Shown here: positions 4,376 through 15,462 of the stretch, in pieces
Numbering within the stretch: position 1 is the first letter of the stretch
How the letters are laid out: each line of letters opens with the position of its first letter
Assembly: GCF_000317575.1 (NCBI RefSeq)
Contig: NC_019748.1
Location: forward strand, 2,810,501 to 2,874,500
Reading direction: 5' to 3'
DNA from: Stanieria cyanosphaera PCC 7437
Lineage (GTDB): Bacteria; Cyanobacteriota; Cyanobacteriia; Cyanobacteriales; Xenococcaceae
DNA: 64,000 bases
Translations under genes and position numbers: made by a program
Notes under the pieces: generated by a model
What the model saw: the letters and a program-made list of their open reading frames with translations, nothing else
Database searches by the model: none
What the model was told of the DNA's origin: nothing

Positions 4376-5692
4376 ATGATAATCCTAGAGTACAAAATCA
4401 AAGCAAAACCACATCAATATCTGGCAATTGACCAAGCTATTCGCACAGGTCAATTTGTCAGAAACAAAGCTTTGCGCTATTGGATGGACAATAAAAAAGT
4501 CAATAAATACGACTTAAATAAGTATTGTCGCATTCTAGCTAAAGAGTATGTTTTTGCTGATAAATTAAATTCTACTGCTAGGCAATCATCTGCTGAACGT
4601 GCTTGGTCAGGAATAGCTAGATTTTTCGATAACTGCAAAAAGCGCACCGCCCACGCGGAGGAAACCTCCGCGTGTGGCCGGAGCAAGCAGAAAGTTAAAG
4701 GCAAGAAAGCGGATGCGACCGACCCGTCGTCTTACGGCGGGTCGCACGCGCACCAAGCAGGCTATCCTAAATTCAAGAAACATTCTCGCTCAGTTGAATA
4801 TAAACAATCTGGCTGGAAGCTAGACGAAGCTACCAAAAAGAATATTACTTTCACCGATAAAATCGGCATAGGAAGAGTTAAGTTAGTCGGTAGTCGAGAT
4901 ATCTATTTCTATCAACCAGAACAAATTAAGCGAGTAAGACTGGTTCGTCGCGCTGATGGTTACTATTGTCAGTTGGGAATATCTATCGAAGTAAAAGAAG
5001 ATATGCAACCAACAGGCAAAGCCATCGGCTTAGATATGGGATTAAAGTATTTCTATGCTGATAGCAATGGATATATAGAAGAAAATCCTAGATTCTACAG
5101 AAAAAGCGAAAAACGTCTTAACCGTCTAAACAGACGAAAGTCTAAAAAGTACCAAAAAGGAAAAAAACAGTCTAAGAATTACCACAACGCTAGAAAGAGC
5201 TATGCAAAACTGCATTTAAAAGTAAGTAGACAACGTGAAGAACACGCTAAGAGAGTAGCGCGTTGCGTATGTGCATCTAATGATTGCATCGTCTATGAAG
5301 ATTTAAATGTTAGAAATCTAGTTCGTAATCGAAGATTGTCAAAATCCATATCTGATGCTGGTTGGACTCAATTTCGTAAATGGGTTGAGTATTTTGGCTG
5401 GAAATTCGGCAAGATAACAATTGCCGTACCTCCACATTACACTTCGCAAGATTGTCCTGCTTGCGAAAGAAGAATCAAAAAATCTCTATCTACTCGTACT
5501 CATGTTTGTGAGTGCGGATATACAGAAGATAGAGATATAGCAGCTAGTATCAATATTCTAAAAAAAGGACTGAGTACGCTAGGGCATAGCGGAAGTTACG
5601 CTTGGGGAGAAACTCCCTCTTGGGCGGTTGGCGTAAGCCTGTCGTCTAACGGAGATTCGTTGAACCAAGAATCCCAAGGGGCTGTGGTCTGA
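4376..5692 (+). CDS. tnpB: TnpB, RNA-guided RuvC-like nuclease of an IS200/IS605-type element
   Basis: 438 residues. The RuvC catalytic residues are all present: D220 in GLDMGLKYF, E308 in VYEDLNV, and D387 in EDRDIAAS. A C4 zinc finger is formed by C360, C363, C378 and C380. TnpB proteins cut DNA guided by an RNA made from the 3' end of their own element. No TnpA transposase is nearby, so the element is a tnpB-only type, mobile only in trans. Two in-frame palindrome-encoded insertions (residues about 90-105 and 112-127) interrupt the usual NCK..KVKGKK..GYPKF linker, accounting for a length somewhat above the usual 400. The ATG at 4376 gives the expected N-terminus. The catalytic core looks intact. 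Confidence 0.93.
   Translation: MIILEYKIKAKPHQYLAIDQAIRTGQFVRNKALRYWMDNKKVNKYDLNKYCRILAKEYVFADKLNSTARQSSAERAWSGIARFFDNCKKRTAHAEETSACGRSKQKVKGKKADATDPSSYGGSHAHQAGYPKFKKHSRSVEYKQSGWKLDEATKKNITFTDKIGIGRVKLVGSRDIYFYQPEQIKRVRLVRRADGYYCQLGISIEVKEDMQPTGKAIGLDMGLKYFYADSNGYIEENPRFYRKSEKRLNRLNRRKSKKYQKGKKQSKNYHNARKSYAKLHLKVSRQREEHAKRVARCVCASNDCIVYEDLNVRNLVRNRRLSKSISDAGWTQFRKWVEYFGWKFGKITIAVPPHYTSQDCPACERRIKKSLSTRTHVCECGYTEDRDIAASINILKKGLSTLGHSGSYAWGETPSWAVGVSLSSNGDSLNQESQGAVV
4651..4677 (+). repeat. GC-rich palindrome inserted in frame in tnpB (copy 1)
   Basis: Arm CCACGCGGAGG (4651-4661), loop AAA, arm CCTCCGCGTGTGG (4665-4677). It is strongly GC-rich against an AT-rich gene. It encodes part of an extra segment, about residues 90-105, that typical TnpB proteins lack. 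Confidence 0.75.
4721..4743 (+). repeat. GC-rich palindrome inserted in frame in tnpB (copy 2)
   Basis: Arm GACCCGTCGT (4721-4730), loop CTT, arm ACGGCGGGTC (4734-4743): a ten-pair stem with one G.T pair. It lies in a second extra segment (about residues 112-127), separated from copy 1 by the native KVKGKK stretch. Same design as copy 1: stem of about ten and a three-base loop. Confidence 0.75.
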
Positions 5693-5775
5693 GGAGACCT
5701 CAGACCCTTGTATGCCCCGCCCACCAAAAGCAATGACGAAGCGAGAGCGGAGTCAGTGGTTTAGTGGTGGGAGTG
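5678..5775 (+). ncRNA. Predicted omega RNA (reRNA) / right end of the tnpB element
   Basis: The 3' end of tnpB and the bases after it form a stacked structure. GGGGC (5678-5682) pairs with GCCCC (5714-5718) around the perfect hairpin GGTCTGAGG-AGA-CCTCAGACC (5686-5706), which spans the tnpB stop. CCCACCA (5720-5726) then pairs with TGGTGGG (5765-5771), enclosing TGAC/GTCA (5734-5737, 5752-5755). This is the place and style of the scaffold RNA and right end in tnpB elements. The element probably ends near 5772-5778, and the guide would be the flanking bases after it. Boundaries are estimates. Confidence 0.6.
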
Positions 5776-13218: not shown

Positions 13219-15462
13219 TTAGATTAATTTATTTTGATAGTAGGCAATCGCCTGTTTATGACGTAATAACGTGAGGGGTCTTAATAAAACTTTTATCATA
13301 ATTAGTAAAGATTTAATTTCTCCTGGACTATTTTTTCTGCGCCATTGTCCAGGACGACAATACAATATTTCAATTAAACTTTTCTGTTGAGCCAAACTAA
13401 GATTTTTAAATTTAATTCTAATTCTGTTTGTTCTCTCTTGAACATAACTATGGGTAATATAACCGTTAACTTGTAATCCTTCTTCGATTAAAGTTAAATT
13501 GATTTGTGTTGGTAATTCGGTGTTTGTTGCTAAAGTTATTTCTGCACCTTCTTCCGATAATTTGTTAGTAACTCCATTGTAAATACAGTCGTTATCAACA
13601 GTAAGGATAACGGGTTTCTTTAAAGAAAACCATTCGTAAAAGCTAGGTTTAGGAATGTCGAGTAAAGTCAATAAAGCAACACTAAGAGTTATTAAATTAT
13701 AAAAACTCCACCATAAACCAAGATTTAAAGCAGATTGAGTTGAAGAATTTAAGACAGCTAGAACAAAACTAATTCCAGTAATAATTAATAATCCTACTAA
13801 AGGTAAAGCTAAAGTCCAATTAAAATAAAAGCGGTCTGAAGCTAATCCTTTGGGAGTAACTTTAAATCCTTTAGCAAAAGGACTTAGAATAATTTTAACT
13901 ACAGTAATAGCTGTAGGAAAACACTGGACTAAAGAATATAAATCAGCCAAAATTGCTGAACGAGATCTGTGATTAAGCCAAGCAAAAACTGAAAGCTGAA
14001 TAATATAGTAAGGCAGAAAAATATAAACTAATTCTCTTAAACTAAACTCAATTGGATTGATACCAAAGAAAATATAGATAATAGGGACAAATAGAAAAAA
14101 GAAACGAGGGATAGGAGTAAACCAGTGTAGTAAGCCTTCTAAATGACCTAATCTTTGCCAGAAATTTAATCCTGGAATAGTTAGGGGATTGGATTCGATA
14201 AAAAATGCTTGCAAAGTACCTCTAGCCCAGCGCAATCTTTGATCGATATGAGCCGAAATGTTTTCTGCTGCTAAACCTGCACTTAATTTTTCATCTAAAT
14301 AAACCAATTCATAACCTTTGGCAGCTAAACGAATCCCTGTAAAGTAGTCTTCACTAACTGAGTTGGTTACAAAATAACCAATCTCTTCCAATGCACTACG
14401 ACGAACGATGAAAGAAGTTCCTGCACAAACTACACTACCTACACCATCTTTGATTGGTTCGACTTGACGATAAAATACTTCTTCTTCAGGATTTAAAACA
14501 TCTTCTAAGCCTAAATTTCTGGCAATGGGATCGCAATTATAAAAACTTTGGGGAGTTTGAACTAAAGCAATTTTTTGATTTTGAAAAAAGCCAACGGTGC
14601 GTTTTAAGAAATTAGCAGTAGGAATAAAATCAGCGTCAAACACTACAACTAATTCACTATGAGTTTGGGCAAGGGCATGATTCAAATTTCCTGCTTTAGC
14701 ATGAGAATTATCAGGTCTAGTGATGTAGTGACAACCTAATTGCTGTGCTAATTGTTTGATTTCAGTTCTTTTAGTATCGTCTAGGAGATAAATTTGTTTG
14801 TGGGGATAATCTAAAGCCTGACACCCAACGATAGTTCGTTTCAAGATAAAATCGGGTTCGTTGTAAGTAGGAATTAAAATATCTACGGAGGGAGCATAAC
14901 TACCTTGTTCAACTGCTTCACTGTATCGATTTGCTTCACGATGGCGATTTTTGACTGAGAACATCAAAAGTAGTTGAATAATTGCTCCTGATATAGTTAA
15001 TAATTCCATCAATAGCAATAACAGACTAAAAGTTCCATTAACAGGATCTGCAAGATTGAGGGTAGATAAAACTCGCCATAATAAATAGCGAACTAATAAG
15101 ATCAATAAAATTGAGACAACTATTCGGCGTGACCAAGTTTGAGGTGTAGGAGACACTCTCATAATTCCTTGCGCCAAAAAAAACAGTACCAGTGTCGGTA
15201 CTAGAAGATAATATTTATTTCCTAACTGCGGTGGTATCAACCAACTTGGAGGATTTTCCTGAATTAGCTGCAAACTAGCAAACAATTCGGTGATGTGACT
15301 ATTACCGAATAACCAAGAAAGAGAAATTGCTGCAAAACAACCAATCATAACAAGTATAACTAAGGTCGCTTGATGTAAGCGGAAGCCTGAGTTACGAGTT
15401 ACAAAGAGAGGAAAATTCTCTCTAGACGATGATACTGGTTTAACTGTTTGCATAAAGTTCAA
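13219..15462 (-). CDS. Cellulose synthase-like glycosyltransferase (BcsA-type) with degenerate PilZ
   Basis: 747 residues, membrane-bound family 2 processive glycosyltransferase. There are N-terminal helices at about 30-55, 85-100, 113-130 and 145-170. The catalytic domain has D228/D229 (LLDDTKR), DAD at 276-278, SED at 370-372, and QRLRW at 408-412. Further helices form the export channel at about 430-610. A C-terminal PilZ-like domain (about 620-720) lacks the RxxxR motif; in place of (D/N)xSxxG it reads KLSEEG. Regulation by cyclic di-GMP is therefore doubtful. Likely product is a beta-glucan such as cellulose (inference from family). No bcsB, bcsC or cellulase gene is nearby. Confidence 0.88.
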   Translation of the reverse strand: MNFMQTVKPVSSSRENFPLFVTRNSGFRLHQATLVILVMIGCFAAISLSWLFGNSHITELFASLQLIQENPPSWLIPPQLGNKYYLLVPTLVLFFLAQGIMRVSPTPQTWSRRIVVSILLILLVRYLLWRVLSTLNLADPVNGTFSLLLLLMELLTISGAIIQLLLMFSVKNRHREANRYSEAVEQGSYAPSVDILIPTYNEPDFILKRTIVGCQALDYPHKQIYLLDDTKRTEIKQLAQQLGCHYITRPDNSHAKAGNLNHALAQTHSELVVVFDADFIPTANFLKRTVGFFQNQKIALVQTPQSFYNCDPIARNLGLEDVLNPEEEVFYRQVEPIKDGVGSVVCAGTSFIVRRSALEEIGYFVTNSVSEDYFTGIRLAAKGYELVYLDEKLSAGLAAENISAHIDQRLRWARGTLQAFFIESNPLTIPGLNFWQRLGHLEGLLHWFTPIPRFFFLFVPIIYIFFGINPIEFSLRELVYIFLPYYIIQLSVFAWLNHRSRSAILADLYSLVQCFPTAITVVKIILSPFAKGFKVTPKGLASDRFYFNWTLALPLVGLLIITGISFVLAVLNSSTQSALNLGLWWSFYNLITLSVALLTLLDIPKPSFYEWFSLKKPVILTVDNDCIYNGVTNKLSEEGAEITLATNTELPTQINLTLIEEGLQVNGYITHSYVQERTNRIRIKFKNLSLAQQKSLIEILYCRPGQWRRKNSPGEIKSLLIMIKVLLRPLTLLRHKQAIAYYQNKLI

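Follow-up and report, generated by a model that had tools for sequence, protein, structure and literature searches.

Palindromic DNA residing in frame within protein-coding genes is already established by two groups of bacterial repeats: the Rickettsia palindromic elements (RPEs), which are about 150 bp long and occur in unrelated metabolic genes of Rickettsia (PMC10969869), and intragenic copies of the repetitive extragenic palindromic (REP) sequences (PMC3733652). GTAG- or CGTC-tagged REPs are mostly intergenic sequences of 20–40 bp that bear a tetranucleotide tag and are known in cyanobacteria, and their intragenic copies, many of which occupy genes for replication and repair, contribute residues to the encoded proteins of several species (PMC3733652); REPINs and RAYTs are treated elsewhere (PMC3116915). 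Mobile palindromes in frame are most familiar from Rickettsia, together with scattered REP examples. Here we analysed a tnpB gene in a stretch of 64,000 nucleotides (nt) of the Stanieria cyanosphaera PCC 7437 genome (hereafter, the window), in which an earlier reading of the sequence alone (the original prediction) had placed two GC-rich palindromes at 4641–4755, breaking a KVKGKK linker without shifting the frame and recalling RPEs. Our results make it very probable that two small, non-autonomous mobile palindromes, one from each of two families (A1 and A2), inserted separately into this gene; the palindromes would target A-runs, be moved by an enzyme acting in trans and be tolerated as in-frame copies. 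The features concerned are:

4376–5692, + strand: tnpB host gene, encoding 438 amino acids (aa), with OrfB_IS605 and Cas12f1-like TNB domains
4642–4689, + strand: insert 1 (family A1, 48 nt), GCGCACCGCC-hairpin-CGGAGCAAG-CA, encoding residues ~90–105 (RTAHAEETSACGRSKQ)
4652–4674, + strand: stem of insert 1, a perfect 10 bp with loop AAA (arms 4652–4661 and 4665–4674, 100% complementary)
4690–4708, + strand: original KVKGKK linker separating the two inserts; its last bases, AAGAAA, form the A-rich target of insert 2
4709–4759, + strand: insert 2 (family A2, 51 nt), GCGGATGCGACC-hairpin-ACGCGCACCAAGCA, encoding residues 112–128 (ADATDPSSYGGSHAHQA)
4720–4744, + strand: inner stem of insert 2, 11 covarying pairs (one G-U) with loop CTT (4720–4730 with 4734–4744)

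The tnpB frame, in which we take several residues, by eye, to be the RuvC acidic motifs and zinc knuckles, stays open through both inserts and reads CKK-RTAHAEETSACGRSKQ-KVKGKK-ADATDPSSYGGSHAHQA-GYPKF, whereas all six aligned paralogs (the closest full-length TnpB proteins of the same genome) read CKK-KVKGKK-GYPKF and lack both the 16-aa and the 17-aa extra. Gaps of about 16 residues each had been anticipated, and sharing of these residues by close homologues, which would have argued against insertion, was not seen in any of these six paralogs. The predicted stems of about ten pairs with three-base loops likewise stood, at 10 and 11 pairs, as did the inserts themselves; their limits alone had to be redrawn slightly wider, to the coordinates given above. 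Folded as RNA, insert 1 has z = −5.5 on the + strand and −5.3 on the − strand, with insert 2 at −2.8 and just −1.4, respectively. The first palindrome gave one match within the window at three or fewer mismatches (none expected by chance).

Insert 2 has a second copy in its own genome, lying in frame in a DDE transposase gene on contig C2 (108,587 bases; presumably a plasmid), in which CCC/GGG of the stem is replaced by TAT/ATA, that is, by compensated changes. The expectation that both palindromes would recur in other genes of this genome, a lack of further copies having been named as grounds for rejecting the idea, was therefore borne out for insert 2; for insert 1, no further copy with complete ends is present here, and its other copies lie in related genomes. 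Across A2, the ends GCGGATGCGACC...CGCACCAAG-CA enclose a variable but covarying hairpin, and this end pattern was found at 27 places in 10 of the 195 genomes of the window's order (reversed control, 0) and in 88 stretches of the GTDB genome collection. Eighty of the 88 were listed as loci and gave 79 distinct contexts; we left out 12 of these, treated as chance matches (other phyla by title, mostly other lengths and one with a clear A-run), and analysed the remaining 67 cyanobacterial copies, among them one titled Chloroflexaceae (L196), the sequence of which equals a locus of genome G022 from the window's order. Most copies are 51 nt long (49, with 13 of 53 nt and 5 of 49, 50 or 52 nt). End conservation in this sample is by construction, since the search pattern fixes the ends, and the hairpin between them is not fixed. 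No match to the pattern was found in viral contigs, and a BLAST search of insert 2 against plasmids returned chance matches only. At Okeania loci with like flanks (for example, L165 and L183), the hairpin occurs in 51-nt and 53-nt versions that differ by a block of the 3′ arm and not by point changes.

The 51 distinct copies of 51 nt fall into three groups: 22 form a good stem in one register, 25 pair with a two-base bulge and 4 do neither. In the first group, selected for the covariation analysis because its copies are well paired, 98.7% of cells are paired (27–48% once slid out of register), 10 of the 11 inner pairs have changed on both sides and covariation scores 0.513; shuffles score 0.146, and none of 500 reaches the observed value. 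Immediately to the left of the element, at least four of the last five bases are A in 63 of the 67 cyanobacterial copies.

Filled and empty sites define the insertion events. In genome G035, a Prochloraceae metagenome-assembled genome, five TnpB genes share an A2 copy between zinc-finger cysteine pairs; three of them (L106, L111 and L121) also carry A1, and two (L109 and L120) are empty, reading CTGAAAAA-GCTGG. A TnpB of the Xenococcaceae genome G003, agreeing with that of the window at 66% of aligned positions, has at the same site an element identical in 51 of 51 bases (L099 versus 4709–4759), suggesting either that this site was hit more than once or that the element has been retained unusually strongly. 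Target duplication was not consistent across filled and empty pairs, and the element limits are certain to 1–4 bases because flanks and element share bases. For A1, the end pattern was found in 13 of the 195 genomes (control, 0), and a relative of insert 1 lies in an IS630-type transposase of Stanieria NIES-3757 (BLAST against plasmids gave one real relative record). Four homologues of this filled transposase aligned over the site (L046–L049) lack exactly those 16 residues, and the filled transposase itself is present in four copies with identical protein, so this insertion sequence (IS) still spread despite the insert. A single DDE transposase frame (L105:1486–2625) holds both A1 and A2, the latter reversed and at the very start.

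A2 also has relatives in a wider superfamily. A sister form, AGCGGTGCGACC...CAAGAC, is 51 nt long counting its leading A, and two such inserts of 51 nt each lie in frame in a cytochrome P450 gene of genome G057 (Pfam, 244 bits; L290:905–2383), the second shortly before what we take to be the haem-binding motif; a homologue with 77% DNA identity lacks both. An A2 covariance model gave, at E ≤ 1, at least 10 matches in the own genome, at least 16 in G001 (same genus), at least 22 in G003, at least 39 in G035 and at least 106 in G057, these being lower bounds from 150 candidates scored per genome, and many of the G057 matches are the sister form. As judged from reading frame and Pfam only, sister copies lie well inside frames of CobN/Mg-chelatase, chorismate-binding, DUF29, TnpB-like and transposase-like proteins, and one in the own genome lies in frame in a 593-aa open reading frame (ORF) with a Mom domain; 15 of 36 sister-length copies in four genomes are spanned by a frame of 150 aa or more. 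At L038:1501–1517 (G000:C1:854415–854431), a related hairpin, GCCGAGGAAACCTCGGC, lies in an apparently open frame, the residues of which by eye resemble a ferredoxin-NADP reductase linker.

The 51-nt form concentrates in mobile-element genes. Forty-seven of the 67 cyanobacterial A2 copies lie in or at such genes, corresponding to 21 of 35 clusters (defined by flank similarity, with full independence not assured), and the setting within a mobile-element nuclease that the original prediction had remarked on is thus not a chance one. Searched with tblastn, 38 copies had a TnpB or transposase of our panel no more than 60 nt away on one side or both (31 of them on both), against backgrounds of 1.5% for the sampled own chromosome, 2.1% for other sampled contigs and 3.2% for the same contigs away from the element; nine further copies, to which these backgrounds do not apply, were assigned to mobile-element families by Pfam, one of them below cut-off. 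The panel is partly circular, including proteins chosen as element hosts; with a panel of only the 16 own-genome TnpBs and matches required on both sides, 29 of the 67 copies and 7 of the 35 clusters were retained (background, 2.5%; p = 2e-5). When 19 spanning frames from the 27 places in the order were put to Pfam, 15 were TnpB or transposase (one below cut-off) and 4 had no match. Mobile-element hosts comprise TnpB, transposases, IscB and a group II intron reverse transcriptase; for example, a 51-nt element lies in frame at the end of the RRXRR match and ahead of the HNH match of an IscB-like gene (L218:5704–7026), and an element lies in frame between the RVT_N and RVT_1 matches of the group II intron reverse transcriptase (L227:4581–6428).

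We propose that an enzyme acting in trans inserts each copy, a hairpin whose outer ends are constant, immediately 3′ of an A-run, always in one orientation and without duplicating the target in any consistent way. A copy that is a multiple of three in length and has no stop in the host frame could then reside in a gene and would presumably be translated there into a loop of 16–17 residues; the remaining copies would survive mainly between genes or within broken ones. The 51-nt form is most often housed in transposable-element genes, perhaps because such genes accommodate extra loops, can be dispensed with and transport their passenger to new places. Several results weigh against this interpretation. 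The own genome has the A2 pattern at two places and the A1 pattern at the window copy alone (the core of stem 1 occurs there at three exact and three two-mismatch places, control 0, of which only the window copy has A1 ends); the covariation sample was chosen for its pairing, and two of the five covariation measures are weaker, with double-changed pairs reached by 6 of 500 shuffles and further pair types by 118 of 500; and one P450 site, where AGCG is common to the element start and the right flank, may have a short 4-base duplication. A special freedom of the element from stops was considered and rejected, its six-frame openness being 5.19 versus 4.84 in shuffles (highest shuffle, 5.21), and the sister form is likewise not stop-free beyond chance (4.79 versus 4.98); the slight openness of A2 reflects mainly G+C content. 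For 21 of the 36 sister-length copies, no frame of 150 aa or more spans the element, the presence of the sister form in P450, CobN/Mg-chelatase and chorismate-binding genes means that residence in mobile genes is no rule of the superfamily, and two A1 copies of 45 nt, a multiple of three, lie in no gene-sized frame. Finally, the search for a mobiliser gave none, no model R1 match being present in the examined flanks of six divergent Y1 loci.

As to the enzyme, our guess is that the palindromes move as single-stranded DNA through an IS200/IS605-type Y1 (HUH) transposase acting in trans. When Y1 enzymes handle non-autonomous single-stranded DNA, a fixed orientation set by a short left target, a hairpin, no duplication and no coding capacity are expected, and Y1 genes were present in all seven genomes searched, but no individual Y1 gene could be linked to the element. 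A bolder extension, which we advance tentatively and give somewhat less than an even chance, is that the 51-nt element is a hyperparasite adapted to mobile-element genes, targeting A-runs within the Lys-rich linkers of TnpB, IscB, DDE transposases and group II intron reverse transcriptases, kept harmless by its exactly 17 codons and riding host transposition and horizontal transfer across cyanobacteria.

Alternatively, the elements might be REP/REPIN-like and moved by a dedicated RAYT transposase, as a cyanobacterial REPtron system, which we consider doubtful. Short palindromes, a fixed orientation at a short A-rich target, the lack of a consistent target duplication and the Y1 genes in every genome searched would all suit such a system, as would the residue-encoding intragenic REPs described in PMC3733652. 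By reading, however, the element ends carry no unpaired GTAG or CGTC tag (A2 begins GCG and ends CAAGCA); none of six divergent Y1 loci, judged RAYT-like by length and weak score only, had an R1 match in the examined flanks; and of 35 scanned Y1 loci, four had a match at E < 0.001, two of these being strong matches in a neighbouring tnpB and two weak ones near other Y1 genes (20.8 and 20.9 bits). Spread of the copies via RNA and reverse transcription, as reportedly proposed for cyanobacterial small dispersed repeats, is unlikely: it would accommodate the covarying hairpin, the A-run at one end and the lack of consistent duplication, but the A-run is part of the target and is present at the empty site too. 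We think it improbable that the hairpins are kept for a function, dampening the translation or transcription of transposase genes; their strong folding and concentration in mobile-element genes would fit this, but the copies share no single orientation, position or frame: both orientations, several positions and, for each orientation of the spanning frames, all three frames are represented, and copies also lie in a P450.

Element length bears on a further alternative, that the inserts are skipped in translation or removed from RNA so that a normal protein is made, in the manner of a minimal intron or of the mitochondrial byp elements. The strong hairpins within coding genes would suit this alternative, but under skipping, length should be irrelevant. 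Among TnpB-labelled A2 copies, the median spanning frame is 340 aa for the 51-nt form (n = 23) versus 192 aa for the 53-nt form (n = 12; p = 8e-4), a comparison in which the title-checked 53-nt copies are all from Okeania, some frames are cut short by the end of a contig and many of the copies share ancestry. Similarly, in 26 distinct A1 contexts from 30 loci, a frame of 150 aa or more, extending 20 aa on each side, encloses 7 of 11 copies of 48 nt versus 1 of 11 copies of 49 nt (p = 0.012; counted by hand with limits set after viewing the table, and with some of the seven related, two being of one TnpB type and one being the window copy); single A1 copies of 44 and 50 nt lie in no such frame. 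Lengths that are not a multiple of three thus tend to occur outside genes or in broken ones, a pattern that on balance is as translation and purging predict, and that, counting against skipping or splicing, leaves that alternative very improbable.

An AlphaFold model of the window TnpB (13-sequence alignment; mean predicted local distance difference test (pLDDT) score, 72; predicted template modelling score, 0.47) has low confidence at residues 91–140, which comprise the inserts and linker (block means, pLDDT 45–60), between a long helix (66–99) and a strand (140–144), and the best four PDB matches, including ISDra2 TnpB, start at residue 126–127, the extreme end of the inserts; both would fit a tolerated loop, proving little. 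That the inserts are ordinary variation of a Lys-rich linker and not mobile DNA might be suggested by this low-confidence region and by the position of both sites in the linker, but is refuted by the same sequences in unrelated genes with empty sites, and we regard it as practically dismissed.

A third palindrome lies at the 3′ end of the gene:

5678–5717, + strand: palindrome of family B (40-nt core), GGGGCTGT-9-bp stem with 3-nt loop-CTTGTATGCCC, core ending in GCCC

The tnpB gene ends inside this palindrome, with its stop codon in the stem, and the palindrome lies in the presumed guide-RNA region. We rejected the possibility that it is part of the IS right end, as paralog ends show it to be extra; in paralogs such as L005, AATCCC is followed directly by a short hairpin and GGGAGTGTCAA. 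On contig C2, two near-identical family-B palindromes (L076:14867–14906 and 15212–15251) lie in frame within one 508-residue ORF, encoding TGRTSPRIEFGGQPLT twice, which makes family B the second type of palindrome that lies in frame in this genome. Separately, an Rfam search of the window gave a single, sub-threshold match to RAGATH-18 at 5601–5671, just upstream of the tnpB stop (22.1 bits versus a cut-off of 44.9; E = 0.56); RNAs of this type are tied to IS607 TnpBs in PMC11061315.

We found no published description of the A1 and A2 families in the open-access literature, and as far as our searches of open papers reach, what is new comprises the cyanobacterial families themselves, the ends that define them and the site they target, a hairpin that varies yet covaries, and the enrichment of the 51-nt form in mobile-element genes. 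Because this cyanobacterial superfamily offers defined ends and target, empty sites and host-multiplied copies, the question of movement becomes testable, and these findings suggest that natural RNA-guided nucleases (TnpB and IscB) carry tolerated loops of 16–17 residues, at sites that engineers could use.

Among known systems, the likeness to RPEs raised by the original prediction holds as a mode of working, in that several families of mobile, hairpin-forming palindromes reside in frame within protein-coding genes; it is an analogy and not family membership. A1 and A2 differ from RPEs in being 48–51 nt and not about 150 bp long, in being cyanobacterial (none of the 80 listed A2-pattern records, of 88 stretches, is titled Rickettsia), and in that the 51-nt form follows an A-run and has most of its copies in or beside genes of transposable elements. 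With REPs they share short palindromes and intragenic copies that encode residues, and they differ in being longer, untagged and biased towards mobile-element genes. The small dispersed repeats of Nostoc (Elhai 2008) are reportedly tiny mobile hairpins of 21–27 nt with compensatory changes and nested insertions, and thus similar cyanobacterial elements, but the A1 and A2 units are larger, at 48–51 nt; in-frame residence in transposase genes is, to our knowledge, not a feature of those repeats. No longer element with A2 ends was seen in the examined loci, nor any lone A2 end, apart from one in a sister-form copy and one in a copy that an N interrupts. The IS200/IS605 and IS607 elements and their miniature inverted-repeat transposable elements likewise have hairpin ends, no target duplication and a short fixed target at the left end.
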